From Porphyrobacter sp. LM 6 (GTDB taxonomy: Bacteria; Pseudomonadota; Alphaproteobacteria; Sphingomonadales; Sphingomonadaceae): 64,000 bases of DNA. The position numbers were made by a program, and so were the translations under genes. Under the pieces are notes generated by a model that saw nothing but the letters and a program-made list of their open reading frames with translations, was not told where the DNA came from and made no database searches. This document shows positions 32,066 to 55,692 of the stretch, piece by piece. The stretch lies in NCBI RefSeq assembly GCF_001720465.1, contig NZ_CP017113.1:434001-498000 (forward strand), in the 5' to 3' direction. Each line of letters starts with the position of its first letter. Position 1 is the first letter of the stretch.

Positions 32066-32158
32066 GACAGGGCCTTCCCCAACAAGGGTGTCTTCCCGCC
32101 CTAATGCGGGGCTAGCCGCGCGGATGCAATTGCCTTGGCGCGTGGCGAGCGCGCTGCC

Positions 32159-32176
32159 GACAAGTTTTTGCTTGTC
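32159..32176. promoter_or_regulatory. Inverted repeat upstream of the type I secretion genes
   Basis: GACAAG-TTTTTG-CTTGTC, a perfect 6-bp inverted repeat with six bases between the arms, lies 41 bp before the TolC start codon and 94 bp before the divergent epimerase start. The size and position suit a regulator operator. No regulator gene is adjacent, so this is only a candidate. Confidence 0.35.
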
Positions 32177-32216
32177 TGTTCATCGAACTGCGTCGATTGC
32201 TGACACGGCTACTGGC

Positions 32217-33578: not shown

Positions 33579-33593
33579 CGCAGGTTGAACGAC

Positions 33594-36868: not shown

Positions 36869-36966
36869 GCGGGCACCTTTTTCGTCTTCACCAAGCCGCT
36901 GAAACCGCATAGAAGTCCGATGCTTTTCGCCGGAATTGGGGCCGTGCGGGGCATGGAGAGTCGCAG

Positions 36967-39900: not shown

Positions 39901-42240
39901 GTTTTCGACCGCACCTTGATCGACCTGCTTCGGCTCGGCGGCAATCCGTTTGAGCTAGGCATCTACGAGCTGCGTCAGGTCGGCAGTGACGTGCAGCTGA
40001 TCCTGAGCCCGTCAGTCAGCGGCGATTATGTCGAACAGCTGGTGATGACCTTCCAGAACACGCAGGTCTCTGCCTTCACGGCCGAGAATTTCTCCGGCTT
40101 CGATCCGCACGCTGTCCCGCTCGTCCCGCGCTACATTTACGAGAACACCACCATCGGCACCGGCGAGTCGCTGTCGCTCGTCAACATCACCCCCGACGGG
40201 CTGGTGTTGATGGGCGCGAATAGCGGTTTCGTTTACCGCGCAATCGACGATTCTGATTTCATCAACAATGGCAGCGTCACCACCATCGCCGACCGACCCG
40301 GATACGGCCTGCCGATCGGGTTCGGGGTGAGCCGGAGCTCCGCCCCCGGCGTGGATGCATGGTTCGTCAACAGCGCGACCGGCGAATTCATCGTCGCCGC
40401 CAACTTTGATGACGGTTCGGGCATCATCTCCTTCAGTGCCACGCAAGCCTTCGGTTTCTACGCCCCGCAGCAGGCGGTGCATTTCCGCAATGACGGCTAT
40501 TTCGAGGTCACTTCGGCCATCGGAAGTGCCTTCGGGGTGGTCACCGGTTTCGATACCACCACGACGCGGCAATTCGTCAACAACGGCACTTTGATCGCCG
40601 ATGGGGCCTATGGCGGCTTTGCAGTCGAACTGGGCTTTGCCGCCAGCTTCCTTAACACCGGAGCTATTGCGGCATTCGGTCTGGTCGAGGCGGTTGGCGT
40701 GCGTTGGAGCCAGTATGGCGGCGGCAGCTTTGTCAACTCGGGAACGATCTTCGCGCTCAACAGCCTCGATTCGCCGTTCTTCAGTGTCGGAGTGCTGCTG
40801 ATCGAGGTGCCCGACGCCAATGTCACCCCGCCGCGTGTGATCGAAAACAGCGGGATCATCTCCGCCGACATCGCGATCCTCTCGGCCGACGGCAGCCCGG
40901 CGGGGCAGGTCACCAACCACGTCCGCAATACCGGTCTGATCGAAGGTGCGATCCTGCTCGGCTTCGGCAATGACGCGGTGTTCAACAATGACGGCGGCGA
41001 AATCCGCGGTGCGGTGCTGCTCGAGGAAGGCAACGACCTTTACGATGGCATCGGCGGTACGCTGGTCGGCAGTGTGCGCGGCGGTCTGGGCGATGACACC
41101 TACCGCATTGACGATGCTGCGATCGACATCATCGAGAACGCGAGCGAAGGGACCGACACGGTCGAGATCGGGCGCGACTACACGCTGCGCGACAATTTCG
41201 AGGTTCTGCGCCTGCTGGGCAACGACGGGTTCTCGGGAACGGGCAACACACTCGACAACCAGCTCTTTGGGAATGCAGCCGGCAACCGCCTGACGGGCCT
41301 TGGCGGCAACGACACGATCAACGGCGGCAGCAATGTGGATACGGCGGTCGTGCGCGGTCTGCGCTCGGCCTATACCGTGACCCAGACCTCGACCGGCGTG
41401 TTCCAGGTGGTGGGGCCGGACGGGACGGATACGCTGACCGCGATCGAGTTCCTGCAGTTCGACGATCAGGTGCTTCGCTTGCGGCCCGGGACCGGAGTGA
41501 GCGTCAACTTCAACACTGCCGATCCCTCGGTATACCAGTCGGCGATGAACAATATCCGCGACTTTGACGGCAATGCGCTGGGCGGCAATGGCTCGTGGCT
41601 GCGGATCGGTTCGGCGGACGTGAACGGGGATGGCGACGTTGACCAGATCCTCGTCAACCGCACCATCGGACGGTTCGCCACCATCGGCACAGCCCCCGAT
41701 GGCCTCGTCTACTTCTCGGATCACAGCTGGGCGGGCGAGACGCGCGTGGCGGGGATCTATATCGATCCGCTGGTCGCTTCGGGGCAGGTGGTTGCAGGCA
41801 GCGCCAACGACAGCCAGCGCCGGTTCCAGAACGATCTCCAGATCGAGAACATCAACCGCGTGCTGGGTGCCAGCGACTACGACCGCGATGGCTTGCAGGA
41901 GGTCTACTTCGCGCTGACCGACGGGACGGCCTATCTGCGCGCGATCATGGAGGCTGACGGCAACATCCGCTACGCCAACTACCAGTCGCAGCAGGAGGTG
42001 ATCAACTACCTCACCGCCAACGGCTTTGGCCCGTCGACCTGGGCAGGCTGGTTCCCGCAACCCACCAGCGGCGAGGCGAGCCTGATCGGCGAGGATGATG
42101 CGAGCCTCGTCAAGGGCGATCCCGGATCAGACACGCTCGGCACCGGCGCGCTGGACGCAGGGCTGGCGGGCACCCCCCACAGCTTCCACCCGATGTTCAC
42201 CATCCCGACCGAAGTGCTCGCCCCCGAATTCTACGGGTAA
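36967..42240 (+). CDS. Large RTX-type calcium-binding protein, probable type I secretion cargo
   Basis: A 1757-residue acidic protein without a Sec signal. Residues 1-1048 are four tandem modules of 225-295 residues. Each has glycine-aspartate RTX nonapeptides (GGAGNDTI, GGDGDDVI), then LGAGRD, ITDF-x-TG-x2-GD, LRLxQDGADT and a closing TAANFSG-like motif. Residues ~1050-1355 are Asn-rich with NNGS/NSGT steps, likely a beta-helix. Residues ~1360-1460 have more RTX repeats, and ~1520-1690 an FG-GAP/VCBS-like segment (ADVNGDGDVDQIL). The last ~40 residues probably carry the secretion signal. No protease HExxH motif was found. GGAGAG precedes the ATG. It follows the TolC-ABC-HlyD operon by 98 bp. 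A surface adhesin or matrix role is inferred. Confidence 0.9.
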   Translation: MPTINGTTGNDVLPGTQADDTINGGAGNDTIVDRYGDDVIDGGDGDDVIVDEGGSNTIRGGNGNDRITFSDVYSLPGSTIGNPARTNLIEGGAGNDFVTVGRLTRGALTVDLGEGDDILRITSLIPDIAVFRLGAGRDTVLLTYDFGDTVRANLGILTIADFTAGDAGDILNLGEMVRGLFSSPSVFAAFDGANPFANGVLRLVQDGADTLIQLDYDGSKSNITAPFTIIRLENVVATSLTAANFSGLNPAGGAPALPTVGGTAGDDLIFGPSSGAIINGGDGRDEIIGGFRADEINGGSGNDIIDGGAGADVLRGGDGDDTITDQWGNDTIEGGIGNDRILIYRPGISGVDTVLNETVTVNAGDGNDYVRLELDRRDFAPLTQRTLHGIVDLGAGDDVIELVAPSYNILLPTAQITLGTGRDRVIVDTRAPQLGMSVTITDFAAGNSGDILEVAVPIGLAPAWNRVSNPFASGHLFLQQDGADTLVRFDYDGTGGGSGDGYHFTLVRLVGVTAASLTAANFNGYDPTGATSSFQIRAGTSGNDELTGSFGNDLIEGGDGDDVITEVYGGSDTLRGGNGNDTIRVATLYSPTSDTVTISGDAGNDLVDFSLSTTSGLTYAANIDLGIGDDRLILRSAPSGGMVITLGAGRDVIELAPGLAGTSVGAITITDFQTGNSGDLLDWNLFAESDLSIDADTDFEGFVQEHMRLLQVGNDTHLQISEVGYSQQFVTLAVFQNTVATSFTAANLGFDPNHATLLGTAAGETLGGTANLDIIWAGEGNDTINGLVGDDRLYGEAGTDIINGGDGNDFIRGGLGDDTLNGNDGDDTIDSGGGRDGVFGGGGNDIIDDFGGIDDIDAGSGNDRVNVSLTFALTADGGGIAPGRVIAGDGNDVVTITDAFLGTSNPPEGATPYSVDLGAGDDLLITDGHFGRITLGAGRDVVQFVEGVDSYGSVITDFATGATGDRIDLTGLLGFSIDVFDRTLIDLLRLGGNPFELGIYELRQVGSDVQLILSPSVSGDYVEQLVMTFQNTQVSAFTAENFSGFDPHAVPLVPRYIYENTTIGTGESLSLVNITPDGLVLMGANSGFVYRAIDDSDFINNGSVTTIADRPGYGLPIGFGVSRSSAPGVDAWFVNSATGEFIVAANFDDGSGIISFSATQAFGFYAPQQAVHFRNDGYFEVTSAIGSAFGVVTGFDTTTTRQFVNNGTLIADGAYGGFAVELGFAASFLNTGAIAAFGLVEAVGVRWSQYGGGSFVNSGTIFALNSLDSPFFSVGVLLIEVPDANVTPPRVIENSGIISADIAILSADGSPAGQVTNHVRNTGLIEGAILLGFGNDAVFNNDGGEIRGAVLLEEGNDLYDGIGGTLVGSVRGGLGDDTYRIDDAAIDIIENASEGTDTVEIGRDYTLRDNFEVLRLLGNDGFSGTGNTLDNQLFGNAAGNRLTGLGGNDTINGGSNVDTAVVRGLRSAYTVTQTSTGVFQVVGPDGTDTLTAIEFLQFDDQVLRLRPGTGVSVNFNTADPSVYQSAMNNIRDFDGNALGGNGSWLRIGSADVNGDGDVDQILVNRTIGRFATIGTAPDGLVYFSDHSWAGETRVAGIYIDPLVASGQVVAGSANDSQRRFQNDLQIENINRVLGASDYDRDGLQEVYFALTDGTAYLRAIMEADGNIRYANYQSQQEVINYLTANGFGPSTWAGWFPQPTSGEASLIGEDDASLVKGDPGSDTLGTGALDAGLAGTPHSFHPMFTIPTEVLAPEFYG

Positions 42241-42396: not shown

Positions 42397-43614
42397 ATGA
42401 CGGCAGTCAGTCCGGCCGAGCGCGCCGGTGCCGCAATCACCGAACCGGTCCTGTTGGACGTGACGCGCCTCGTCGCCCGCGCCTGGTCGGGGCGGCACTC
42501 CACCGGGATTGACCGCGTATGCGCGGCCTATCTCGATCACTTCCGTCCGCATGCCCGCGCCGTGGTGCAGCATCGCGGGCTCATTCGCGCGCTGCCGCAT
42601 CGGGAATCCGCTGAACTGTTCACGCTGATTGAGGCTCCGCCTCGCGGGCGCCGCACTGCGCTTGCGCGGGTGCTCTCATCGGCCCTGCTGTCGGGGACGG
42701 CGGAGGCAGAGTTGTCCGGGCGCGCCTATCTCAATGTCGGCGATACCGACTTCGACTTGCGATCCCATCACCGCTGGGCCGAGCAGACCGGCGTCCGGCC
42801 CTTCTACTTCCTGCACGATCTCATTCCTGCGCTGAACCCCGCTTTTTCGCGCCCGCATGCGGTGAGGCGCCATCGCGGGCGTGTGCGCGGCGCGCTTGAG
42901 CATGGCGCGGGCGTGATTGTTGGCACCCAGGCGGTCCGGCAAGAGGTTGAAGCCTACGCCGCCGCGAATGGCTGGCCGTTGCCACCACTGGCAGTCGCAC
43001 CCCTTGCCGGAGCCGATTTCGCGCAGATGCCGGAGGTTCGGGCCGAGGAACAGGCGCCATTCTTCCTGTGCGTCGGCACGATCGAGCCACGCAAGAACCA
43101 CCGCCTGCTGTTTGCCGTCTGGGAGCAATTGGCTGCCCGCTTGGGGGCGGAAACCCCTAAGCTCATCATAGCCGGCCAGACCGGGCCGATGACCGGCGAC
43201 CTGCTCGCACCGCTCGCAAACCTCGCGCCGCATATCGAACATCGCCCGTCGTGCAGCGACGCCGAACTGGCCGATCTGATGCGCGGCGCGCGCGCTGTGC
43301 TGATGCCGAGCCTTGCAGAGGGCTTCGGCTTGCCCGTGGTCGAGGCGCTGCAATGCGGTACCCCCGTCATCGCCAGCGCCTTGCCAGTCTTTGCGGAAAT
43401 CGGGCAAGGTGCAACGCGGCTGGTCGATCCGCGTGACAGCGCCGCCTGGGAGCAGGCGGTCTGCGCCGCAGTTCACGCGCCGTCGCGCAAGACCGGCCCC
43501 GTACCGGGTTTCGTCCCGCCACGCTGGCAGGACCATTTTGAAGTCGTCGAGCGTTTCATTGCCAGCCGGGTGCCCTGTGCCCAATCCTCCAGCAAAAGAG
43601 TTCTTGCCGCGTGA
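42397..43614 (+). CDS. Glycosyltransferase family 4, capsule cluster
   Basis: A 405-residue GT-B enzyme. It opens with VLLDVTRLVARAWSGRHSTG, followed by GIDRVCAAYLDHF, the pattern of mannosyl- and other transferases in capsule and O-antigen loci. The C-terminal half has FLCVGTIEPRKNHRLLFAVW and MPSLAEGFGLPVVEALQCG. Its stop overlaps the KpsE-like gene (GTGA), so it belongs to the export operon. Donor and acceptor sugars are unknown. The 156-bp gap after the RTX gene shows no clear terminator. Confidence 0.88.
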   Translation: MTAVSPAERAGAAITEPVLLDVTRLVARAWSGRHSTGIDRVCAAYLDHFRPHARAVVQHRGLIRALPHRESAELFTLIEAPPRGRRTALARVLSSALLSGTAEAELSGRAYLNVGDTDFDLRSHHRWAEQTGVRPFYFLHDLIPALNPAFSRPHAVRRHRGRVRGALEHGAGVIVGTQAVRQEVEAYAAANGWPLPPLAVAPLAGADFAQMPEVRAEEQAPFFLCVGTIEPRKNHRLLFAVWEQLAARLGAETPKLIIAGQTGPMTGDLLAPLANLAPHIEHRPSCSDAELADLMRGARAVLMPSLAEGFGLPVVEALQCGTPVIASALPVFAEIGQGATRLVDPRDSAAWEQAVCAAVHAPSRKTGPVPGFVPPRWQDHFEVVERFIASRVPCAQSSSKRVLAA

Positions 43615-44702
43615 TCACCCGATTGAAATCCACCGCCGGTCTTGCCTTGCTGACGGTGATCCTGCCGACGCTGATCGCGCTCGTCTATTTCGGCTTGCTG
43701 GCCGAGGACGTCTACATCTCGGAAGCGCGCATCGTGGTGCGGCACCCCGAGCAAGGCCAGGTATCGCCGCTTGATGCCGCGCTCGATCGCACCGGGTTCG
43801 GCGCGGCGAACGAGGGCAACAACACCGTTATCGCCTATCTGCAATCGCGCGCCGCGATTACCGAAGCGAACGCCGATGGTTCGCTCAAGGGGGCCTATAC
43901 CCGCCCTGACCTGTTCTGGTTCGACCGCTTTGGCCTGCTGGGTGACAGTGATGAGCAGTTCTACCGCTATTTCCAGGACAAGCTGGAAGTCGAGGAGGGG
44001 GCCACCACCCAGGTTCTCACGATCCGCGTGCGGGCCTTCGATCCCAAGAAAGCGCAGGCGATCAACGCGCGTTTGGTTGAGCGGTCCGAGGCGCTGGTGA
44101 ACAGCCTGTCCAAGCGCTCGCAAAGCGACCTCATCACCATCGCCGAAACCGAAGTCGCTGATGCCACCGCCAAGGCGCGAGGCGCTGCGCTGGCCCTGGC
44201 GCGCTATCGCAACCAGAGCGGGATCGTCGACCCGGTGCAGGAATCCGAGGTCGGCTTGCAGATGATCTCGAAGTTGCAGGACGAATTGATCGCCGCCCAG
44301 ACCCGGCTGCGCCAGCTCCAGACCTACACGCCGGAAGCCTCGCAGATCCCGTTCCTCAAAAGCCAGGTGCGCGATCTCCAGCGAGAGATCGACGAGGCGC
44401 GCAGCAACCTTACCGGCGGGCGATCGTCGCTGTCTTCCGCGCTGACGCGGTATCAGGAGCTGCAGCTTGATGTCGAGTTCGCCGAAAAGCAGCTCGCCGC
44501 CACCCGCGCTTCATTGCAGGAGGCCCGCGCCGAGGCGCGGCGCAAGCAGGCCTATCTCGAACAGATCGCCGCGCCGAGCCTGCCCGATTACCCGGTCGAG
44601 CCGCGCCGCATCCGTTCGATCTTCGCCACGCTGGTGCTGGGCCTGCTGGCGTGGGGCGTGCTGTCGATGCTGTTGATCGGCGTGCGCGAGCACCGGGACT
44701 GA
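43611..44702 (+). CDS. Capsule polysaccharide export inner-membrane protein (KpsE/CtrB/BexC family)
   Basis: A 363-residue polysaccharide co-polymerase. Transmembrane helices near residues 9-30 (LALLTVILPTLIALVYFGLL) and 338-356 (SIFATLVLGLLAWGVLSMLL) enclose a periplasmic part with long coiled coils (AETEVADATAKARGAALALA and later). The early motif YISEARIVVRHP matches KpsE/CtrB. It links the ABC transporter to the outer-membrane channel protein encoded at 48315-49526. Starts with GTG. Confidence 0.92.
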   Translation: MITRLKSTAGLALLTVILPTLIALVYFGLLAEDVYISEARIVVRHPEQGQVSPLDAALDRTGFGAANEGNNTVIAYLQSRAAITEANADGSLKGAYTRPDLFWFDRFGLLGDSDEQFYRYFQDKLEVEEGATTQVLTIRVRAFDPKKAQAINARLVERSEALVNSLSKRSQSDLITIAETEVADATAKARGAALALARYRNQSGIVDPVQESEVGLQMISKLQDELIAAQTRLRQLQTYTPEASQIPFLKSQVRDLQREIDEARSNLTGGRSSLSSALTRYQELQLDVEFAEKQLAATRASLQEARAEARRKQAYLEQIAAPSLPDYPVEPRRIRSIFATLVLGLLAWGVLSMLLIGVREHRD

Positions 44703-45505
44703 TGGCTTCCCTGCCCGACACCCCGGTGCCTCTGTGGCATTCGCTGCGCATCCAGCTGCGGGTGATCGACGCCTTGCTGCGGCGCGAGATGCTGACGCGC
44801 TATGGCCGGCATAATATCGGCTTCCTGTGGCTGTTCGTCGAACCGATGATCTTCACCATCGGGGTGACGATCCTGTGGACCGCGACCAAATCGGTGCATG
44901 GCAGCGATCTGCCGATCTCGGCCTTCGCGCTGACCGGTTATTCGAGCGTGCTGCTGTGGCGCAACATGCCGGGCCGCTGCATCGGTGCCCTGCAGAACAA
45001 CCTCGCGCTGATGTATCACCGCAACATCAAGGTCGGCGATATCTATGTCGCGCGGCTGCTGATCGAATTCGGCGGTGCGACCATTTCCTTTGCGGTGCTG
45101 GGGCTGTTCTTCATCGCGGTCGAATGGATCAAGCCGCCGGAGGATTTCCTGCAAGTTGTGGCCGGCTGGCTGCTGATCGCGTGGTTCGGCAGTGCGCTCG
45201 CAGTTGCGCTCGGCGCGCTGTCGCACCTGAGCGAGCTGGTCGACAAGCTGTGGCACCCGTTTTCCTACCTGCTGTTCCCGCTGTCAGGTGCGGCTTTCAT
45301 CGTCGCCGCGCTGCCGCAATTTGCGCAGGAAATCGTATTGTGGATCCCGACGGTCCACGGGATCGAGCTGGTGCGCGAAGGCTTTTTCGGCGACCGCGCC
45401 CGGGCGATCTACGACCTTGGCTACGTTATTCCGTTCAATCTGGTTCTAACCCTTATCGCACTGATTGCGCTGCGATATGTCGCGCGTAGGGTGGTGCCTG
45501 AATGA
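44702..45505 (+). CDS. Capsule polysaccharide ABC transporter permease (KpsM/CtrC family)
   Basis: A 267-residue ABC-2 type permease with six hydrophobic segments. The N-terminal cytoplasmic part contains VIDALLRREMLTRYGRHNIGF, typical of KpsM, and the end has WIPTVHGIELVREGFFGD. The ATG shares one base with the upstream stop; the downstream ATPase gene overlaps by four. It should move lipid-linked or otherwise finished polysaccharide across the inner membrane. Confidence 0.93.
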   Translation: MASLPDTPVPLWHSLRIQLRVIDALLRREMLTRYGRHNIGFLWLFVEPMIFTIGVTILWTATKSVHGSDLPISAFALTGYSSVLLWRNMPGRCIGALQNNLALMYHRNIKVGDIYVARLLIEFGGATISFAVLGLFFIAVEWIKPPEDFLQVVAGWLLIAWFGSALAVALGALSHLSELVDKLWHPFSYLLFPLSGAAFIVAALPQFAQEIVLWIPTVHGIELVREGFFGDRARAIYDLGYVIPFNLVLTLIALIALRYVARRVVPE

Positions 45506-46950
45506 TCGAAGTCCGCAACCTTACAAAGGTCTATCCGACCCGCTTCGGCGAGAACCTGGTGCTGGACGATGTCAGCTTCGACCTTGCGATGGGGGAGCGG
45601 CTTGGCATTCTCGGCCGCAATGGCGCCGGCAAATCGACCATGATCCGCCTCATCAGCGGGGCAGAGCGGCCGACTTCGGGCACGGTGCGCCGGTCGATGT
45701 CTGTGTCCTGGCCGATAGCGTTCGGCGGGGCGTTCCAGCCAAACCTGACCGGGATCGATAACGTCCGCTTCATCAGCCGCATCTACAATCAGGACGAAGA
45801 GAAGAACCTTCGTTTTGTCGAGGAATTTGCCGAGCTTGGCCCCTACCTGCGCGAGGAAGTGCGGACCTATTCCTCCGGCATGCGTGCGCGGCTCGCCTTC
45901 GCGATCTCGATGATCATCGAGTTCGACTGCTTCCTGATCGACGAGGTTGGCGCCGTGGGCGATGCGCGGTTCCACGAGCGCTGCAATCGGGAATTGTTCC
46001 GCAAGCGCGCTGACCGGGCAATGATCATCATTTCCCACGACGCGTCCTACATCCGCGATCACTGCAACCGCTTTGCTGTGCTGCATAACGCCAAGCTCAC
46101 CCTGTTTGACGATTTCGACGCCGCCTATGGCCACTTCCGCGAACAGCTTGGGCTCGCCGCCCGCGAACATTCGCCGCTCGAACAGCTCCCCGATGACCGC
46201 CGCCAGCTGATCGAGACCACCCATACCGTGTCGGTGCTCGACGATGCCTTCCGCGCCAGCGTGCAGCAGGCCGACTGGAAACGCGATGCCGCGCAATGGG
46301 CAGAAGCGGAGACCGAATACGCCCGCGCGCTGGCCCTGTTTCCCTTCCAGCGGTCATACTGGGTGCAGAAGGGCCATGTCGCCAAGGAGGCTGGCGCTTT
46401 CGAGCGCGCCGAGATCGCCTATCGCACCGCGATTGCGCTGGGCGAGGCGTTCGAGGACGTGCGAGAACATCTCGATTTCGTGCTGCGCCGGCAAGGCACC
46501 GATCTCGCCGCATGGCCCGCCGCCATCTATCAGCGAGTCCCGGCCGCCATGGCTGCGCCAGCCGCCCCCGATCTCGCCGTACTCGTGCGTGCGGCGTGGG
46601 GCGAGCCTGCCTTGGCCGAGGCCGAGGAACGCGATCTGTTGCGCCGACATGCGACCTGCAACGCATTGCTCGCCACAATCATTGCCGATCCGCGCTTTGC
46701 AGTCGCCCGCCGCCGGTCTGAGGGCGACCACGAGACCAGCGCTGCTTCCGAGGGGCAGGTGCCCGCATGGATCGCCGATCTGGTGGTGATTGCCTGCGCC
46801 GCTGCCGATCGGGACGAAAAAACCGCCATTGCTGCACGCATCGCTGCAGCAATCGCCGCCGGCCGTGACCCCTGGCCGGTTCTTACAGCCGCAGGCGGCT
46901 TTCATGACTGGCCGGCCGTCAATCACACACAGACCGTAGAAACGGCGTGA
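45502..46950 (+). CDS. Capsule export ABC ATPase (KpsT/CtrD family) with C-terminal TPR-like extension
   Basis: A 482-residue protein. Residues 1-215 are a complete KpsT-type ATPase: Walker A GRNGAGKST, signature YSSGMRAR, Walker B CFLIDEV, and switch histidine in IISHDASY. KpsT proteins normally end there. Here about 265 further residues follow, including TPR-like helices (WAEAETEYARALALFPFQ and AFERAEIAYRTAIALGEAF, about residues 265-325) and an Ala-rich end. The added part may bind a glycosyltransferase or sense the glycan. The reading frame is continuous, so it is a real fusion unless the sequence contains an error. Confidence 0.92.
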   Translation: MIEVRNLTKVYPTRFGENLVLDDVSFDLAMGERLGILGRNGAGKSTMIRLISGAERPTSGTVRRSMSVSWPIAFGGAFQPNLTGIDNVRFISRIYNQDEEKNLRFVEEFAELGPYLREEVRTYSSGMRARLAFAISMIIEFDCFLIDEVGAVGDARFHERCNRELFRKRADRAMIIISHDASYIRDHCNRFAVLHNAKLTLFDDFDAAYGHFREQLGLAAREHSPLEQLPDDRRQLIETTHTVSVLDDAFRASVQQADWKRDAAQWAEAETEYARALALFPFQRSYWVQKGHVAKEAGAFERAEIAYRTAIALGEAFEDVREHLDFVLRRQGTDLAAWPAAIYQRVPAAMAAPAAPDLAVLVRAAWGEPALAEAEERDLLRRHATCNALLATIIADPRFAVARRRSEGDHETSAASEGQVPAWIADLVVIACAAADRDEKTAIAARIAAAIAAGRDPWPVLTAAGGFHDWPAVNHTQTVETA

Positions 46951-46978
46951 CCCACTCTCTTCAGCCAACAGGTACAAA

Positions 46979-48289
46979 ATGAGCCGGATCCTTATCGACG
47001 GGTACAATCTCGGATTGGAGAAAGGCACTGGTGTAGCCACCTATGCGCGCAACCTCAGCTACGAGATCTCCAATCTCGGACACGAGGTCGACGTGCTCTA
47101 TGGCAACAATGCCAGCGCCACCCGCAACGATCTGCTGCGCGAGATCTACTTCTTCGATTCTTCGGTTGATGAACGGATCAAGTGGCTCGAGATCCTCGAT
47201 CAGGCCTATCAGGCGCTGCAAGGCCCGCTGGCGTTCAAGGCGCGGCAGATCCCCGTTACGGGACGGGTCGTCACCCGCACGTTCCAGTCGCGCCTGCCGA
47301 AGTTCGACCGGCTCTACAACGCACCCGATCTGTTCATGCGGGCACAGAGCGCGTTCAAGCTGTGGAAGCGCCCGCTGCGTATCCGGATGCCGGAAAAGCC
47401 CGATCTGGCGCACTGGACCTACCCGATCCCGCTGCGTGTCCCGGGTCGGCCCAATATCTATACGTTGCACGATGTTGTGCCGCTGCGGCTGCCCTATACG
47501 ACGCTCGATCACAAGCGGCGTTATCTGCGTCTGCTCCAACAGCTCGATCGCAAGGCCGCGCACTTTGTCACCGTCTCGGAAAGTTCGAAGCAGGATCTGG
47601 TCGACCTGGTCGGGATCGCGCCTGAGCGGATCACCAACACCTACCAGTCGGTCAGTATTCCCGACAAATACCGCTTCAAGCCCGAAGATCAGGTCGCCCG
47701 CGAGGTCGAGGGGCTGACGGGGTTCGATTACAAAGGCTATTTCCTGTTCTGGGGCTCGCTCGAGCCGAAGAAAAACATCGGCCGGCTGATCGAGGCGTAT
47801 CTGTCCTCGCAGGTCGATACGCCGCTGGTCATCGTCGGCGCGCAGGCATGGAAGTCCGAGCAGGAACTGAAGCTGCTGGGCGAGACCGGCACAGTCTATG
47901 GCAGCCTCGAACGCCGCCGGGGCGCGCGCAAGCGGATCATCCAGATGCCCTATGCGCCGTTCCCGCTACTGGTCAGCCTGATCCGCGGGGCCAAGGCTGC
48001 GATGTTCCCCTCGCTATACGAAGGTTTCGGCCTGCCGGTGCTCGAAGCCATGCTGCTCGGCACGCCGGTGATCTGTTCGAACACCTCCTCGCTGCCAGAA
48101 GTGGCGGGCGATGCGGCGCTGATGGTCGATCCCTATGATACCCAGGCAATCACCCAGGCGATCCGGACGCTCGATGCCGATGATGACCTGCGCGATCATT
48201 ATATCGCAAGCGGGCACCAGCAGGCCGCCCGCTTCAGCCCCGAAGTCTATCGCGATCGCCTGAAAGCCGTCTATGACCGCCACTTGTGA
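46979..48289 (+). CDS. Glycosyltransferase family 4, capsule cluster
   Basis: A 436-residue GT-B enzyme. It begins [20 protein letters not shown] (start of a GT4 acceptor domain), has [14 protein letters not shown] and [11 protein letters not shown], and ends with [19 protein letters not shown] and [19 protein letters not shown]. An unusual basic insert of about 90 residues (residues 60-150) separates the first strands. It lies 28 bp after the KpsT-like gene. It should add a sugar to the exported glycan. Confidence 0.9.
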
Positions 48290-48314
48290 CCTCTTGCCGC
48301 GCAGGAACATTGCC

Positions 48315-49526
48315 ATGTCAGCCCAGCCTCAGCTCCGGTCGCGCGCTTCGCTGATCGCTCTCGCGCGCAGCGCAGCGGGGGCCCTTTGCCTTGGCGCGGT
48401 TTCGGCCTGCACCAGCCTGGGCGGGGCAGGCCCATCGACCGGAGCGATCCGTGAAGCGCAGCAGGATGGGCAGACCTATGCTGACGGCGCTATCCAGGTG
48501 CTGCCTTTGGGGGCCGAGCTCGTCACCGGCCTCAACACCTACGAACGCCGGGCGACCTTTGCCGAGATGTTCGGCGATGCGGGGGTTTCGGCCACGGTGA
48601 TTGCTCCGGGAGACCAGATCGATATCGCGATCTGGGAAGCCCCGCCCGCCGTGCTGTTCGGCGCCGCTCCGTCAGATGGGCAGCCGATCGGCGGCGATCT
48701 GGCCAGCAACACGCCGATCCCGCGCCAGCAGGTCGATGAGGACGGAATGATCGCGATCCCGTTTGTCGGGCGGATCAAGGTGCTCGGGATGCGGCCCGAA
48801 CAGGTCGAGGCGATCATCGTTTCGCGGCTGCGGCGTCAGGCCAACGACCCGCAGGCGGTGGTGCGGCTGGTGCAGAACGAGACTCGCACGGCGACAATTC
48901 TCGGCGCTGTCGGAGCCAGCCGCCAGATCGGCCTTTCGGCGCGCGGCGAGCGCTTGCTCGATGCCATCGCACTCGCCGGCGGCACGCGCGAACCGATCGA
49001 GCAATCGACCGTGCAACTCGCACGCGGCACGCAACAGGCTCTGATGCCGCTCGAACGGGTGATTGGCGATCCGGTGCAGAATGTTCGCCTGCGGCCCGGC
49101 GATGTCGTCACCGTGCAGCATCAGCCCTTCAGCTTCGTCGCCTTGGGCGCGGTGGCGCGCAATGCCGAGGTGCCGTTCGAGGGCGGCGGGATCACGTTGG
49201 CCGAAGCGCTTGGCCGGGCAGGCGGGCTCAATGATCGCCGCGCCGACGTGAAGGGCGTGTTCGTGTTCCGGCTGGAAGACCGCGCCGCCTTGCCGTCACT
49301 GGCTGGAACCGAAGTGCGCGCCACCAGCGACGGGCGCGTTCCGGTGGTCTATACCTTGCGGATGAATGACGCGGCGAGCCTGTTCGTGATGCAGGATTTT
49401 CGCATGCGCGATGGCGATGTGCTTTACATCTCGACCGCGCCGGGGGTGGAGCTGGAGCGGTTCCTGCAGACCATCTCGAGCACCGCTTTCTCGATCGTCG
49501 CCACCGGCAACGCGATCAACCAGTAG
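48315..49526 (+). CDS. Polysaccharide export lipoprotein (KpsD/Wza family)
   Basis: A 403-residue outer-membrane auxiliary protein. A lipoprotein signal ends in GAVSAC (lipidated Cys near residue 33 from the ATG at 48315, which follows CAGGA). The Poly_export domain has VIAPGDQIDIAIWEAP and GMIAIPFVGRIKVLG; two SLBB-like domains follow (VGASRQIGLSARGERLLDAIALAGG and GAVARNAEVPFEGGGITLAEALGRAGG). It forms the outer-membrane exit for the polysaccharide. The reading overlaps nothing if the ATG is used; an earlier in-frame start at 48273 would overlap the glycosyltransferase gene. Confidence 0.92.
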   Translation: MSAQPQLRSRASLIALARSAAGALCLGAVSACTSLGGAGPSTGAIREAQQDGQTYADGAIQVLPLGAELVTGLNTYERRATFAEMFGDAGVSATVIAPGDQIDIAIWEAPPAVLFGAAPSDGQPIGGDLASNTPIPRQQVDEDGMIAIPFVGRIKVLGMRPEQVEAIIVSRLRRQANDPQAVVRLVQNETRTATILGAVGASRQIGLSARGERLLDAIALAGGTREPIEQSTVQLARGTQQALMPLERVIGDPVQNVRLRPGDVVTVQHQPFSFVALGAVARNAEVPFEGGGITLAEALGRAGGLNDRRADVKGVFVFRLEDRAALPSLAGTEVRATSDGRVPVVYTLRMNDAASLFVMQDFRMRDGDVLYISTAPGVELERFLQTISSTAFSIVATGNAINQ

Positions 49527-49532
49527 CCCGTT

Positions 49533-50300
49533 TCAGGCCGCGACGGCGCGCGCGACCGGTTGGGGCAGGCCCGTCAGGTAGTGGGGGGCTTGTGCTTCCG
49601 CGACGCGGTGCATGTGCGGGCAATCGACATCGATCCACCAGTTGCCGGTGACATCGATCGTGTCGGCCATTCCGCAATCGGCGAGCCGCTGCATGCCTTC
49701 CGACAGGCTACCGGCCGCTCCTTCGGACACGGCCTGGGCGATCGCCTCTGCCAGATCGGGCGTGCCGATGAAGGCTCCGCAATCGACCGCGTCATAGCGG
49801 TTCAGGTGCTTGCCGATCAGCGCGATCCGGCCATTGGCGCGCTGCCGCACCCAGGTTGCATCATCGGGATCAATCGTCGGCCCTTCGACCTTGCGGTCGA
49901 TCGCCAGCGCGGCGCCGCCCTGCCGGTCAAAGTCGCGCACAAGGGTGCGCAGCAATCCGGCGCTGAACAGGTGATCGGCCATCATCAGCAGGTAATTGCC
50001 CTTGATCCGCGCCGCACCGGCCAGCACCGAATGACCATTGGGCCGTGACCAGTCCGACAGGCGGCACGCTTCCAGCCGCACGCCGGTCCGGTAGGAAATG
50101 CCCGGAAGACGCGCCTCGATCTCGTCAGCCCGGTGGCCGGTCACGACCACGGCGCGGGTGATTCCAGCGCAAGACGCCTGCCGAACCGACCATTCGAGCA
50201 TTGAAACGCCGGCGACCGGCACCAACGGCTTGGGCGCAGGCAAGGAGGCCAGACGGCTCCCATATCCAGCAGCGAGGATCAGTGCGTTCATTTGTTGCAT
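49533..50300 (-). CDS. Nucleotidyltransferase, candidate inositol-1-phosphate cytidylyltransferase
   Basis: A 255-residue sugar-1-phosphate nucleotidyltransferase-like protein. The catalytic motif is LILAAGYGSRLASLPAPKPL, followed by VVVTGHRADEIEARL, a MMADHLF metal site and an IDVDCP segment. The Leu-x2-Gly-x-Gly-x-Arg-Leu and Pro-Lys wording and length fit the IPCT half of inositol-phosphate cytidylyltransferase/DIPP synthase. It lies 61 bp downstream of the inositol-3-phosphate synthase gene on the same strand, so CDP-inositol formation is the best guess; another NDP-sugar is possible. ATGs at 50300 or 50291 are both plausible. Confidence 0.75.
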   Translation of the reverse strand: MQQMNALILAAGYGSRLASLPAPKPLVPVAGVSMLEWSVRQASCAGITRAVVVTGHRADEIEARLPGISYRTGVRLEACRLSDWSRPNGHSVLAGAARIKGNYLLMMADHLFSAGLLRTLVRDFDRQGGAALAIDRKVEGPTIDPDDATWVRQRANGRIALIGKHLNRYDAVDCGAFIGTPDLAEAIAQAVSEGAAGSLSEGMQRLADCGMADTIDVTGNWWIDVDCPHMHRVAEAQAPHYLTGLPQPVARAVAA

Positions 50301-50360
50301 CACCGTGGAGAGGCGGGGACGGAAGAGGGCGGCGTATTTATATTCGGTCGGTATCTGGCG

Positions 50361-51461
50361 TTATTCAGCGGCATCCAGCCGGATGTTGGGGCGCGGGTCG
50401 AGGGAAGCGAGCGCTTCCTCCTCGGCCATCTGCACCGGCGGATGCTTGCAGTAATAGGCGGATTCGGGAACGAGCGCGCCGCCGATGCCGCGGTCGCGTG
50501 CCAGCTTGCAGAAGCGGATCGCGTCCATCGCGCAGGCGGCGGCGTTGGGGCTGTCTTCGACCGACAGGCGCAGTTCCAGGTTGACCGGAACCCCGCCCCA
50601 CTGCGTCCCTTCGAGCCGCAGGAAACAGATCTTGTTGTCCTTCTGCCACGGCACATATTCGGATGGGCCGATGCGGATATTCTCGTCATCCAGCCGCTCG
50701 GACAGCGCGGCCTGCACCGCTTCGGTCTTGGACAGCTTCTTGTAGGTCAGCCGCTCGCGATCGAGCATGTTCATGAAGTCGGTGTTGCCGCCGGTGTTGA
50801 GCTGATAGGTGCGCTCGATCGTGGCGCCGCGGGTCGAGAACAGGCTGGAGAGCGTGCGATGGACGATCGTCGCGCCGACCTGCGCCTTGATGTCATCGCC
50901 CACAATCGGCAGGCCGCGCTGGCGGAAGCGCGCTTCCCACTCTGGGTCGCTGGCGATGAACACGGGGATCGCATTGACCACGCCGACCCCCGCCTCAAGC
51001 GCGCATTCCATGTAGAATGCACTCGCTGCCTGCGAGCCGACCGGCAGGAAGTTGATGAGCACATCCACCCGATTGTCGCGCAGCGCGGCGACGATGTCCT
51101 GCTGGGTCGGTTCGGGGGCGTCGGCCAGCTGAAAGCCGCGCTCGCCCGCCTCGGTCATGTGTGACGCCACGCCGTCAAGCACCCGGCCCATCATCACCTG
51201 CGCCGCGCTCGGCGGGATGACAGGTTCGAAGACCATCGTATTGTTGGGGCCCGCGAAGATCGCCTCGCTGAGCGGCTTGCCGACCTTGCGACGATCGATA
51301 TCGATGCCCAGCACGAAATCGACATCCGCGGCGTGATAGGGGCCGACGGCTTCGTGGATGAGGCCCTGTGCCGTGCCCGTGCGGCGATAAAAAGCTGCGC
51401 CCTGAACCAGCGAACTGGCACAGTTCCCGACACCTATGATCGCAACGCGGACGCGGTTCAT
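50361..51461 (-). CDS. ino1: Inositol-3-phosphate synthase
   Basis: Converts glucose-6-phosphate to myo-inositol-3-phosphate (equivalent to L-myo-inositol-1-phosphate) with bound NAD. The 366-residue form is the short prokaryotic/archaeal type. Landmarks are the NAD motif VAIIGVGNCASSL, INFLPVGSQAA, VGDDIKAQVGATI, LNTGGNTDFMNML and KICFLRLEGTQWGGVPVNLE. It is the committed step for any inositol-containing product. Such synthases are uncommon in this bacterial group; neighbours include a nucleotidyltransferase and two CDP-alcohol transferases. Confidence 0.95.
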   Translation of the reverse strand: MNRVRVAIIGVGNCASSLVQGAAFYRRTGTAQGLIHEAVGPYHAADVDFVLGIDIDRRKVGKPLSEAIFAGPNNTMVFEPVIPPSAAQVMMGRVLDGVASHMTEAGERGFQLADAPEPTQQDIVAALRDNRVDVLINFLPVGSQAASAFYMECALEAGVGVVNAIPVFIASDPEWEARFRQRGLPIVGDDIKAQVGATIVHRTLSSLFSTRGATIERTYQLNTGGNTDFMNMLDRERLTYKKLSKTEAVQAALSERLDDENIRIGPSEYVPWQKDNKICFLRLEGTQWGGVPVNLELRLSVEDSPNAAACAMDAIRFCKLARDRGIGGALVPESAYYCKHPPVQMAEEEALASLDPRPNIRLDAAE

Positions 51462-51717
51462 CGGGCTTTCCTCAAAATCGATGACAATTCATCAGTGCAA
51501 TTCGTTGGGGGTGTCAACTGCAACGGATTCACGGCAAAAACCCTTCGAAAGCGCACAAGTTCCAGAATTACAGAGACATGTTAACCCATGCCGGGTTTGG
51601 ATTTATAGCTAAAGAACCTGCGGGATTCCGCGTGTTTTCGCCCTTTCTCGCGCGCCCGTGTTAGATATCGTAAGACAATGTTACTGCTGGCTGAATGCCC
51701 TTCGCACGTGCGGTAAG

Positions 51718-52908
51718 ATGCAGGAATTTCGAGATGAAACGACACCATTTCGGTTCAGTTTCTCGGTGACGGGCCGTGCTGCCCGAATCGCGATCGACTG
51801 TCGCTATGTCGGGCCCCGTCCCAGCGGCATTGGCGAGGTCGTGGCGTCATTGATTGAACATCTGCCCGGTCTTGCGCCCGATCTGCAATTCACCCTGCTG
51901 CGCGCGCCCGCGCGGACCGAGCCGCTGAGCCATGCGCCCAACGTGCGCGAGATCGTGGTGCGAAGCCCGGCGAACGGCCCGATCACGCTGATGCACCTGC
52001 CGCTCGCGGTCGATCTTTCCGGGATCGATCTGTTCCATGCTCCCGCCAACATCCTGCCCGGGGGGTTGCGGATGCCGAGCATCACGACGGTTCATGACGT
52101 CATGTGGCTCACGCATCCGCACTGGTGCAATCCTCGGCCCTGGGGCCGGATCGAGCGCCTGTTCTACGGGCACGGCATCCGCCGGGCGCTCTCCCGGTCG
52201 GCGGCGATCACCACTGTCAGCGAGGCGAGCCGCGCGGCCATTACGGCTTTGGCGCCGGAGGCTGCCGGGCGGGTGCTGGTGACACCATCCGGTGTTGCGG
52301 AGGACTTCAGGCCGGTTGCGCGCGATCCTGCCGCGCTTGCCGCGCTCGGGGTCCCGGCGGGCCGGCGCTATGTTCTCGTGGTCGGGCAGGGGGCGCCCTA
52401 CAAGAACCACGAAGGCGCGCTGCGGGCCTTCGCGCAGGCGTTTGGCGGCGACGGGACGATCGATCTGGTGCTGGTGCGGCGGCGCGAGGCCAGCGGGGCG
52501 CCGATCACGCGGCTTATCAGCGCGTGCGGACTGGCGGGGCGTGTGCACTGCCTTGGCCCGATGGACCGCGATGCGCTGATCCGCCTCTACGCCGGGGCCG
52601 AAGTGCTGCTGCACCCCTCGTTCATCGAAGGCTTCGGCAATCCGGTGGCAGAGGCGATGGCCTGCGGTTGCCCTGTCGTTACCAGCGACCGGTCGGCCAT
52701 GCCGGAAGTGGCAGGCGGGGCAGCATTGCTTGCCGATCCTTACGACACGGCCGCGCTCGCCGCAGCCTTGCGCCGTGTGGTTGATGATCCCGCCCTTTCT
52801 GCCGATCTGCGCGAACGGGGCCTTAAGCGCGCGGCCGCACTCGACTGGCGCGAATTTGCCGCCGCCAATCTCGAGCTCTACCGTCGGGTACTGGCCGGGA
52901 CAGTCTGA
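51718..52908 (+). CDS. Glycosyltransferase family 4, inositol cluster
   Basis: A 396-residue GT-B enzyme from the ATG at 51718; a GTG at 51658 would extend it by 20 residues. It shows RIAIDCRYVGPRPSGIGEVV, TTVHDVMWLTHPHW, YVLVVGQGAPYKNHEGALRA and HPSFIEGFGNPVAEAMACG. It is divergent from the inositol synthase (256 bp apart, no feature seen there) and its end overlaps the convergent CDP-alcohol transferase gene by 31 bp. A role in adding sugars to the capsule or to an inositol lipid is inferred from location only. Confidence 0.88.
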   Translation: MQEFRDETTPFRFSFSVTGRAARIAIDCRYVGPRPSGIGEVVASLIEHLPGLAPDLQFTLLRAPARTEPLSHAPNVREIVVRSPANGPITLMHLPLAVDLSGIDLFHAPANILPGGLRMPSITTVHDVMWLTHPHWCNPRPWGRIERLFYGHGIRRALSRSAAITTVSEASRAAITALAPEAAGRVLVTPSGVAEDFRPVARDPAALAALGVPAGRRYVLVVGQGAPYKNHEGALRAFAQAFGGDGTIDLVLVRRREASGAPITRLISACGLAGRVHCLGPMDRDALIRLYAGAEVLLHPSFIEGFGNPVAEAMACGCPVVTSDRSAMPEVAGGAALLADPYDTAALAAALRRVVDDPALSADLRERGLKRAAALDWREFAAANLELYRRVLAGTV

Positions 52909-53759
52909 GCCAGCACCGCGCCGAATGCGGCCCGCACGCGCCGCAGCGACAATGCCAGAACGACGTTCAGCGCGACCACCTCGAACAGGAAATACCAGTG
53001 GGGCCTGCCCGCCAGCATCGCCGCGCCTACCGCCAGGGTGCGGTAATTGGCGCTGAGCAGGCTCATGCCCGCCAGCCACCCACCTCTGCCCGCACGCATC
53101 GCGGTCCCGATTGCACTATGGTGCTCCGGATCCCGCATGGCTGACGTCAGGGCAGCGCCGTGGGGGACGATCAACCCTGTCAGCCATAGGTAATAGATCA
53201 CGAAGGGATGGCGCGCCTCGGCCGGATCTGCCGCCGAGGTGGAGGCGAGCCACGGTGTTGCATAGACCGCCTGCTGATACTGCCGCCGCGCGCCCTCGTA
53301 ATGCGCGGCCTGCACCACCCGGCTGGCTCCGGCCGCCCACATCAGCCCCCAGCCCGCCACGCCGATCTGGGCCGAGGCGAGGAACCCGAGGGTGACGTAC
53401 AGCACGATATGGCCCGCGTAGTCGCAGATCCCGTCGACCAGCTCGCCATGGGCCGAGCCACCTCCGCGCAGCCGCGCCAGATCGCCATCCGCCCCGTCGA
53501 ACACGTGCCAGCTCATGTGCAGCGCGAGGCCGAGCGCCACGCCCCACGGCGAGGCCAGCCAGCCATAGGCGGCGGCGGCGAGCATGATCATCACCGCGCC
53601 GATGATCGACACCATATCGGGCGTGATCCCGGCCGGTACGAGCCGTCGCGCCAGCCGCCACGAGAGCGGATGGTAAAGCCGCCCGTTGAGCCAATCCTCA
53701 AGCTCCTCCGGGCGACGGGGGCGATCTGGCGGAACGGGCGAAGGTTCGGGGTCAGTCAC
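52878..53759 (-). CDS. CDP-alcohol phosphatidyltransferase family membrane protein
   Basis: A 293-residue integral membrane enzyme of the CDP-alcohol phosphotransferase family. The signature D-G-x2-A-R-x8-G-x3-D-x3-D is fully present (DGDLARLRGGGSAHGELVDG and ICD). It begins with a soluble Pro-rich stretch and LEDWLNGRLYHPLSWRLARR before the first helix; six hydrophobic segments follow. Such enzymes transfer a phospho-alcohol from a CDP-linked donor, here possibly CDP-inositol or CDP-diacylglycerol. It is one of two family members in the inositol cluster, so they probably act at different steps. Confidence 0.88.
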   Translation of the reverse strand: MTDPEPSPVPPDRPRRPEELEDWLNGRLYHPLSWRLARRLVPAGITPDMVSIIGAVMIMLAAAAYGWLASPWGVALGLALHMSWHVFDGADGDLARLRGGGSAHGELVDGICDYAGHIVLYVTLGFLASAQIGVAGWGLMWAAGASRVVQAAHYEGARRQYQQAVYATPWLASTSAADPAEARHPFVIYYLWLTGLIVPHGAALTSAMRDPEHHSAIGTAMRAGRGGWLAGMSLLSANYRTLAVGAAMLAGRPHWYFLFEVVALNVVLALSLRRVRAAFGAVLAQTVPASTRR

Positions 53760-53863
53760 GCATCACCGGGCGAGGGAAAGGACGCAGTCGGCCCATCTTG
53801 CCACCTTCCGGCCTGAATGTCCCGACTATACGGCACAAATCCGCGCCGTTACGAAGGTTTGTC

Positions 53864-54889
53864 ATGTCTGCCGTCACAATCCGCTTTGCCTCTGCGCAGA
53901 CCGCCAACCAGCTGGTGGCCGGGGTTCCGGCGCTCGCCCGCGTGGCGCGGGCGGTGGCTGAAGTCGCGCCCGAGGGACGTATCGCGGTGGTGCTGGGGCA
54001 TGGCAGTGCGATCAATGCGCTTACCCGGGCCGAGCTAGCGCGACTGGCCCCCGGGATCGACATCGCCCTTGTGCCGGAGGCCGATTCCGCGGCCATTCCG
54101 GGCGAAACGCTGCCGGATGCCGGGGCGCTTGCCGCCATGATGTCGGGCGCGATCCCGATACCATCCCCGCCCCGCGATCCGGCTGGAGAGCTGGCCAAGG
54201 CCGCCCGCGCGATTATCCGCGCCACCGCCAAACCGGGTGACGGGATTGTCTCGCGACACCTCAATCGCCCGGTATCGCAAGCCTGCTCGGCGCTGCTGCT
54301 GCGGTTCGCCTGGATGCGGCCCGGCCATGCGACGGCGCTGACCGCGCTGGCAGCGGCGGCGATGCTCGCCTGCCTGCTGACCGGCACCGTGGCCGGGTTG
54401 ATGGCGGGGGCCGTACTGTTCCAGATCGCCTCGATCGTCGACGGGATCGACGGCGAGATAGCGCGGGCGACCTTCCGCACATCACCGCAAGGCGCGGCGT
54501 GGGACAGCGGGATCGATGCCGCGACCAATCTCGGCTTTCTCGCCGGGGTGATCGCCAACCTGCTGATGCGCGGCGAGGCCGCCACGGCCACCACCGGCCT
54601 TGCGGGCTTCGGCATCCTCATGGTCGGCATGGGGCTGCTCGGCGCCCGTGCCCGCGCGCGGGGCGAGCCGCTCCATTTCGACGGGGCCAAGGCGATGCTC
54701 GGCCGCCGCGAGACGGCGCTGACCCGCTGGCTGCGCTATCTCACGATGCGCGATTTCTACTGCCTGTTCCTCGCCGTGATGATCTTGCTCGGATGGGTGA
54801 GCGCGGCACTGGCGATCTTCGCGGCGGCGGCGGCGGGCTGGCTGGTGACGGTGATCGCGCTGCTATGGCGCGCCCGCACCCCGGCCTAG
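53864..54889 (+). CDS. CDP-alcohol phosphotransferase resembling DIPP synthase, with diverged N-terminal domain
   Basis: A 341-residue membrane protein. The C-terminal ~220 residues carry the complete family signature (DGEIARATFRTSPQGAAWDS and GID) and five to six helices. Just before them, KPGDGIVSRHLNRPVSQ matches the joint found in fused IPCT/DIPP-synthase proteins (lysine-proline, GDG, VSRxxNR). The first ~115 residues occupy the place of the nucleotidyltransferase domain but lack its Gly-rich and Pro-Lys motifs, suggesting a decayed or repurposed domain. It could transfer phosphoinositol from CDP-inositol to an acceptor not identified here. Confidence 0.85.
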   Translation: MSAVTIRFASAQTANQLVAGVPALARVARAVAEVAPEGRIAVVLGHGSAINALTRAELARLAPGIDIALVPEADSAAIPGETLPDAGALAAMMSGAIPIPSPPRDPAGELAKAARAIIRATAKPGDGIVSRHLNRPVSQACSALLLRFAWMRPGHATALTALAAAAMLACLLTGTVAGLMAGAVLFQIASIVDGIDGEIARATFRTSPQGAAWDSGIDAATNLGFLAGVIANLLMRGEAATATTGLAGFGILMVGMGLLGARARARGEPLHFDGAKAMLGRRETALTRWLRYLTMRDFYCLFLAVMILLGWVSAALAIFAAAAAGWLVTVIALLWRARTPA

Positions 54890-55692
54890 CTGAGCGCGAT
54901 ATCCGGCGCGTCTTCCTGCTTCATCCCGATCAGGTGATAGCCGGCATCGACATGATGCGTTTCGCCGGTCACGCCGGATGACAGGTCGGACAAGAGGTAG
55001 AGCGCCGATCCGCCGACATCCTCGATGGTGACATTGCGGCGAAGCGGCGCGTTCAGCTCGTTCCACTTGAGGATGTAGCGGAAGTCGCCGATGCCGCTGG
55101 CGGCCAGCGTCTTGATCGGGCCGGCGCTGATCGCGTTGACGCGGATGTTGCGCGGGCCAAGGTCGTTGGCGAGATACTTCACGCTGGTTTCCAGCGCCGC
55201 CTTGGCCACGCCCATGACGTTGTAATGCGGCACGACCTTTTCCGCACCGTAATAGCTCAGCGTCAGGATCGCGCCGCCGGTTTCCGGCATCATCGCCGCC
55301 GCGCGCTGGGTGATCGCGACCAGTGAATAGGCCGAGATGTTCATCGTCATCAGGAAGTTGTCGAGGCTGGTATCGACATATTGGCCTCGCAGCTCGTTCT
55401 TGTCGGAATAGCCGATCGCGTGGACCACAAAGTCGATCGTGTCCCAGCGCTGCTTCAGTTCGGCAAAGGCCGCGTCGAGCGATTCCATCCGCGAAACGTC
55501 GCATTCGAAGGTGAAGTCGCTGCCGAGTTCGGCCGCGAGCGGGATCACCCGCTTGGCCAGCGCCTCGCCCTGATAGGAAAACGCCAGCTCCGCGCCCTGC
55601 TCGGCGAGCTTCTTGGCAATGCCCCAGGCCAGCGACTTGTCGTTGGCGAGCCCCATGATCAGCCCGCGCTTGCCCTGCATCAATCCGTTCAT
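54886..55692 (-). CDS. fabI: Enoyl-[acyl-carrier-protein] reductase (NADH) FabI
   Basis: A 268-residue short-chain dehydrogenase that carries out the last reduction in fatty-acid elongation. It has GLANDKSLAWGIAKKLAEQG at the cofactor site, AIGYSDKNELRGQY, and the catalytic YNVMGVAK (Tyr-x6-Lys), and ends near the SGVTGETHHVDAGY segment typical of FabI. ATG 55692 follows AGGAG at a good distance; a longer open frame upstream was rejected. It starts six bases after the stop of the YihY-type gene, so the two are co-transcribed. Triclosan and isoniazid-class target enzyme by family. Confidence 0.96.
   Translation of the reverse strand: MNGLMQGKRGLIMGLANDKSLAWGIAKKLAEQGAELAFSYQGEALAKRVIPLAAELGSDFTFECDVSRMESLDAAFAELKQRWDTIDFVVHAIGYSDKNELRGQYVDTSLDNFLMTMNISAYSLVAITQRAAAMMPETGGAILTLSYYGAEKVVPHYNVMGVAKAALETSVKYLANDLGPRNIRVNAISAGPIKTLAASGIGDFRYILKWNELNAPLRRNVTIEDVGGSALYLLSDLSSGVTGETHHVDAGYHLIGMKQEDAPDIALS

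Follow-up and report, generated by a model that had tools for sequence, protein, structure and literature searches.

Inositol lipids are regarded as relatively rare in bacteria. In Rhodothermus marinus, the synthesis of dialkylether glycerophosphoinositol reportedly depends on cytidine diphosphate (CDP)-inositol, and Jorge et al., who are said to have described it in 2015, reportedly also noted homologues in alphaproteobacteria. We analyzed a 64,000-nucleotide stretch of the Porphyrobacter sp. LM 6 genome (Sphingomonadales; contig NZ_CP017113.1, positions 434,001 to 498,000), hereafter the window, in which a preliminary description had proposed five neighbouring genes of a CDP-inositol pathway at 49533-54889, and found all five reading frames open at that place. 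They encode a predicted CTP:inositol-1-phosphate cytidylyltransferase (IPCT), an inositol-3-phosphate synthase (Ino1), two CDP-alcohol phosphotransferases (AP1 and AP2) and a family 4 glycosyltransferase (GT4c). As in R. marinus, the Ino1 product would be converted to CDP-inositol, and a CDP-alcohol phosphotransferase would pass phosphoinositol on to a lipid alcohol, whereas the locus here has two transferases, glycosyltransferases and a capsule-type exporter.

The IPCT/DIPPS enzymes of Archaeoglobus and Thermococcales (2xme, 4mnd) resemble IPCT in sequence and AP2 in fold and domain joint, but here IPCT is a separate gene and the cytidylyltransferase half of AP2 is shortened. In ordinary capsules that depend on an ATP-binding cassette (ABC) exporter, KpsC and KpsS (PF05159) build an anchor of 3-deoxy-D-manno-octulosonic acid (Kdo)-lysophosphatidylglycerol. 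Group 2 capsules of this kind (KpsMTED plus KpsC/S) share KpsM-, KpsT-, KpsE- and Wza-like parts with the locus, whereas no KpsC/KpsS (PF05159) match was found in the genome of the window (2979257 bases, one contig). The Vi capsule of Salmonella likewise has an ABC capsule exporter without KpsC/S and another lipid anchor, but that anchor is a diacyl-N-acetylhexosamine (diacyl-HexNAc) made by VexE, in place of the CDP-inositol enzymes found here, and the word inositol is absent from the main text of the review (PMC12220298). A putative alternative inositol-lipid cluster of Bacteroidetes, described in a Nature Microbiology paper (PMC9246714), comprises a nucleoside triphosphate (NTP) transferase, a CDP-alcohol transferase and a haloacid dehalogenase (HAD) hydrolase. 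The adjacency of myo-inositol phosphate synthase (MIPS), NTP transferase and CDP-alcohol transferase is common to that cluster and the locus; no HAD hydrolase was found among the 12 proteins encoded from 42397 to 55686, and according to its authors the cluster has no homology in Novosphingobium acidiphilum.

Identity of the Predicted Inositol Enzymes

Through profile searches, we found that IPCT matches NTP_transf_3 in Pfam and, among NCBIfam models, scores best with the IPCT/DIPPS bifunctional enzyme (E 2.6e-29; next best model 1.7e-14), with a score under the full-length cut-off of that model because the IPCT half alone is present. Among solved structures, the best matches are Archaeoglobus IPCT (2xme, E 8.3e-18) and IPCT-DIPPS (4mnd). 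The nucleotidyltransferase of the preliminary description therefore falls with IPCT, and these best profile and structure matches rule out a hexose-1-phosphate enzyme. Ino1 matches PF01658 (E 1.2e-32) and, below the cut-off of that model, TIGR03450 (E 7.2e-119), and its solved relative is the Mycobacterium tuberculosis protein 1gr0 (E 2.7e-113), of the mycobacterial/mycothiol type. The two genes lie on the same strand with 57 bases between them. Natural fusions of Ino1 and IPCT in a single frame occur in four genomes (loci L176, L180, L181 and L185), and fusions of IPCT to a transferase occur in other alphaproteobacteria (L178, L179 and L183).

Both AP1 and AP2 match PF01066 above its cut-off, and the two intact CDP-alcohol signatures noticed earlier are borne out by alignment: every residue of the signature D-G-x-D-G-x2-A-R...G-x3-D-x3-D is invariant in 25 aligned sequences of AP1 (D88, G89, D91, G92, A95, R96, G105, D109 and D113) and in 38 of AP2 (D195, G196, D198, G199, A202, R203, G212, D216 and D220). 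Neither protein matched the PgsA or PssA models of NCBIfam at E 0.001, while in the same genome another gene passes the pgsA cut-off and another falls just under the pssA cut-off, which excludes a PgsA, PssA or cardiolipin synthase identity for AP1 and AP2. In models, solved relatives and fold comparison, the nearest matches of AP2 are DIPPS and AF2299; beside the CDP-alcohol signature it has, in its AlphaFold model, the two-domain fold of 4mnd. The joint that had been likened to that of DIPP synthase is also present, since KPGDGIVSRHLNRP aligns with GDGFISRKINRK of 4mnd, and in the IPCT-transferase fusions that other alphaproteobacteria carry it reappears as TRDGPV(A/S)RHLNRPVS. The N-terminal cytidylyltransferase-like domain of AP2 is shortened and degenerate (about 105-120 residues vs about 230), and by reading its LxxGxGxRL motif is absent, so that no intact fused IPCT domain is present.

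AP2-like transferases also occur in 14 genomes of family f8, where they matched over the transferase half alone and were not seen near Ino1. Another family of about 460 residues (F6; L066:4366-5748 and seven other loci) has a cytidylyltransferase-like half, by reading without the usual motif, fused to a CDP-alcohol transferase, and the loci that carry it are without AP2.

Distribution of the Inositol Core

The survey covered 246 genomes of the order, in which Ino1 was detected in 84, IPCT in 73, AP1 in 72 and AP2 in 25. Every IPCT genome also has Ino1 (73/73), in 71 of them within 5 kb. Ino1 likewise accompanies AP1 in 70 of 72 genomes, and in 55 of the 72 the two lie within 10 kb on one contig; all three members of this core are found in 68 of the 246 genomes, and five IPCT genomes are without AP1. 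AP2 is inside the cluster in 11 of its 25 genomes; in the other 14 it is on another contig of a draft (11), distant on the same contig (2) or in a genome without Ino1 (1). Of 184 IPCT loci in named genomes, the analysis covered 80, mostly of Novosphingobium; 77 of these have Ino1 and 71 have AP1. Class-wide, IPCT is rare: a search with a more distant IPCT at E 1e-22 gave matches in 10 of 289 genomes, one of them that of the window. The preliminary description had expected a pathway of this kind to be unusual for the group, which does not agree with Ino1 plus IPCT in 73 of 246 genomes or with the inositol-type sphingolipid already reported for N. acidiphilum in PMC9246714; the inositol core is not exotic in the order.

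Eleven of the 246 genomes have Ino1 without IPCT; in L072-L075 its neighbours include epimerase and methyltransferase genes, and inositol phosphate may serve another use there. Of 80 loci (L076-L155), 63 have a DUF2141 gene close to IPCT, mostly directly behind it. Proteins of one family (F5; L069:4649-5797 and eight others), about 380 residues long and by reading with a likely signal peptide, are encoded near the core in 9 of 40 loci; they had no Pfam match and no NCBIfam match (E 0.01), and no PDB sequence matched below E 0.66.

Linkage to a Capsule-Type Exporter

The locus extends leftwards, beyond the five genes first described, into an exporter operon (42397-49526) for two further glycosyltransferases (GT4a and GT4b) and KpsE-, KpsM-, KpsT- and Wza-like proteins; the scores for KpsM, KpsT and Wza stay under the NCBIfam cut-offs and the one for KpsE under that of Pfam. 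Among 120 fetched loci, which include at least five genomes twice (none of these in the exporter set), 10 encode three or all four of the exporter proteins, and each of the 10 also has GT4c, Ino1 and IPCT. The exporter was never found without GT4c (0/120), and GT4c was found without the exporter in two loci (L113 and L119). Together with the window and L173, where the same genes stand in a different order with GT4c still attached, this gave 12 linked loci, of which 10 have AP1 and 11 have AP2. At E 1e-30, 40 of the 246 genomes have a KpsM homologue. Identity is 71% or higher for eight of these homologues, each of which lies no more than about 6 kb from Ino1, and in a tree of 31 KpsM sequences a single branch (94/93) sets off the 12 linked ones. 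By this linkage and clade, the capsule, first listed as one option among several acceptors or partners, is the best-supported partner in this lineage. MshA, an inositol-phosphate glycosyltransferase, is among the best models of GT4c, which is a possible inositol-lipid glycosyltransferase.

Other IPCT loci have other candidate transporters. Of 118 loci, 27 encode a flippase-like protein, with a weak match of the multidrug/oligosaccharidyl-lipid/polysaccharide (MOP)/Wzx type under cut-offs, and seven encode an HpnN-like MMPL protein; exporter and flippase-like protein occur together in none of the 118, and in 78 the stretch examined, short in some cases, showed none of these three. These alternative partners fit a lipid product that needs to cross the membrane.

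KpsC and KpsS in Genomes with the Exporter

The linked exporter occurs in 12 genomes, and 11 of them (G000, the genome of the window, G220, G143, G127, G177, G050, G227 and G246-G249, with completeness not given for the last four) gave no KpsC/KpsS match. In comparison, all 17 genomes with a sister-clade KpsM (51-65% identity) have such matches, with a Fisher p of 3.5e-7 that is to be taken loosely because the genomes are related. Fifteen genomes with a more distant KpsM (at most 36%) stand outside this comparison, two of which (G209 and G217) have KpsC/S matches.

Organization of the Locus

Table 1. Genes of the inositol locus and the adjoining exporter operon, in coordinates of the window.
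Feature	Position	Strand	Basis or remark
IPCT, CTP:inositol-1-phosphate cytidylyltransferase (predicted)	49533..50303	-	Profiles, solved relatives, Ino1 linkage
Ino1, inositol-3-phosphate synthase, mycothiol type	50361..51461	-	Profiles, solved relative
GT4c glycosyltransferase	51658..52908	+	Present in 12/12 exporter-linked loci
AP1, CDP-alcohol phosphotransferase, core member	52878..53759	-	PF01066, signature residues
AP2, CDP-alcohol phosphotransferase, DIPPS/AF2299 type	53858..54889	+	Alternative start 53798
GT4a glycosyltransferase, exporter operon	42397..43614	+	
KpsE-like/Wzz-domain inner-membrane protein	43611..44702	+	Name from position and weak Wzz match under cut-off
KpsM-like ABC exporter permease	44651..45505	+	
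KpsT-like ABC exporter ATPase	45502..46950	+	Long C-terminal extension
GT4b glycosyltransferase	46979..48289	+	
Wza-like outer-membrane polysaccharide export protein	48273..49526	+	

The C-terminal extension of the KpsT-like ATPase is about 250 residues long and, to our knowledge, is absent from ordinary KpsT. Further left, an RTX-repeat protein of 1757 residues (36967-42240) stands behind TolC-, ABC- and HlyD-type genes, and we read the whole region (32028-42240) as a type I secretion set with a likely RTX substrate.

Proposed Pathway and Alternative Products

Profiles, solved relatives, AlphaFold models, natural fusions and co-occurrence support a route from Ino1 through CDP-inositol to a phosphoinositol lipid, and we regard the CDP-inositol lipid step as probable. 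From the enzyme families, catalytic residues, fusions, linkage and absence of KpsC/S seen in the sequences, we infer substrates, acceptor lipids (that of AP2 included), the glycan-lipid bond and export as follows. Ino1 would convert glucose-6-phosphate to L-myo-inositol-1-phosphate, from which IPCT would form CDP-inositol with CTP. AP1 would act as a CDP-inositol:lipid phosphoinositol transferase on a lipid alcohol, most likely diacylglycerol and possibly ceramide, between which the sequences do not distinguish, and AP2, as a DIPPS relative with a shrunken cytidylyltransferase half, would perform a second CDP-inositol-dependent transfer. On this lipid GT4c, GT4a and GT4b would then assemble a glycan, which the KpsM/T/E-Wza-like exporter would bring to the cell surface; the inositol lipid would take the place of the Kdo-lysophosphatidylglycerol made by KpsC/KpsS.

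The linkage and the missing KpsC/S are our grounds for a glycan carrier or anchor. We consider the chances about even that this inositol-phospholipid pathway yields a product that carries or anchors the exported glycan in place of Kdo-lysophosphatidylglycerol, and a shade below even for all steps up to and including the glycan anchor. More tentatively still, the locus may represent a new class of Gram-negative ABC-exported surface glycan, for which a glycosylated phosphoinositol lipid derived from CDP-inositol would be both the base of assembly and the anchor, having replaced Kdo-lysophosphatidylglycerol, as a bacterial counterpart of glycosylphosphatidylinositol (GPI) anchors or of the mycobacterial phosphatidylinositol mannoside (PIM) and lipoarabinomannan (LAM) anchors; the same inositol lipid would elsewhere in the order be moved by the flippase-like protein or the HpnN-like MMPL transporter.

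Several observations weigh against an inositol-anchored glycan. The exporter is present in 12 of 118 IPCT loci, and in most the core stands without it. Within the linked set, L046 (G163) has the exporter but no AP1, genome-wide search included, and L173 (G227) shows neither AP1 nor AP2 on a contig that ends there; G163 also has one partial, unlinked KpsC/S-like match (43 bits). The related genomes are not independent samples, and L132 and L155 are near copies. KpsC/S are absent as well from 2 of 7 and 3 of 8 Novosphingobium-type genomes that have the core but no linked exporter; the two of seven (G117 and G136) are also without a KpsM match, and G178, one of the eight, is counted in both sets. 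The likeness of GT4c to MshA is a hint, because GT4b matches the same model. The N-terminal domain shared by AP2 and IPCT is suggested by fold comparison and not by profile comparison, which was not significant (probability 0.2%), and the grouping of AP2 with the fused transferases rests on long branches.

The 106 of 118 IPCT loci in which no such exporter was found, some of them short stretches, would suit a plain inositol phospholipid pathway, in which CDP-inositol and diacylglycerol give phosphatidylinositol as in Rhodothermus and the exporter is an unrelated neighbour. Phosphatidylinositol is listed as a major polar lipid of the genus Pseudoblastomonas (Erythrobacteraceae) in PMC12210278, and PMC9246714 cites the CDP-inositol route to lipids as already known. 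Against an unrelated neighbour stand the linked exporter clade, always beside Ino1 in the survey (8/8), GT4c still attached after rearrangement in L173, and the missing KpsC/S, and we find this pathway rather unlikely.

Equally doubtful in our view is inositol phosphorylceramide, with AP1 (or AP2) moving phosphoinositol to ceramide to give a lipid like phosphoinositol dihydroceramide (PI-DHC). Such a lipid is reported in N. acidiphilum, where the two Bacteroidetes clusters have no homologue, according to PMC9246714, and IPCT is common in Novosphingobium: nine of the 16 species named in PMC12210278 are among loci L076-L155, and a tenth is represented by protein P0288. The 120 of 2864 protein matches listed include Novosphingobium sp. 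FSW06-99 and N. nitrogenifigens, but N. acidiphilum is neither among these nor among the 80 of 184 loci, and ceramide is not separated from diacylglycerol by sequence.

A solute pathway to di-myo-inositol phosphate, with AP2 as a true DIPP synthase, would agree with the closeness of AP2 to DIPPS and AF2299. We judge it quite improbable, because AP2 is optional beside the widespread core member AP1 (25 vs 72 of 246 genomes) and the linkage to glycosyltransferases and an exporter, or to a flippase-like protein (27/118 loci), fits a lipid and not a solute. Least probable, by a little, is a cytidylyltransferase for another phospho-alcohol (phosphocholine or phosphoglycerate), since, although relatives of the fold take several substrates and CpgD of Caulobacter makes CDP-glycerate despite its similarity to Thermotoga IPCT (PMC12275187), IPCT gave the best profile and structures, and the constant company of Ino1 and the four single-frame fusions make inositol-1-phosphate the best substrate, against phosphoglycerate as for CpgD.

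Significance

In the open-licence PMC literature, we found no publication that joins CDP-inositol genes with a capsule exporter, and among the papers listed none describes a phosphatidylinositol-anchored ABC capsule by its title and the start of its abstract; the new part is that the core, AP2 and GT4c travel in this lineage with a Kps-type exporter and two more glycosyltransferases. The PI-DHC-like sphingolipid of N. acidiphilum was reported without matching genes (PMC9246714), and the inositol core is a good and concrete candidate to fill that gap because 10 of the 16 Novosphingobium species named in PMC12210278 carry IPCT. More widely, the route to inositol lipids in alphaproteobacteria is unsettled, and the core is a candidate there too. 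If the link to the exporter is true, ABC-exported glycans would have one more type of lipid anchor in addition to Kdo-lysophosphatidylglycerol and the diacyl-HexNAc of Vi, and the link would predict which genomes make an inositol-anchored glycan.

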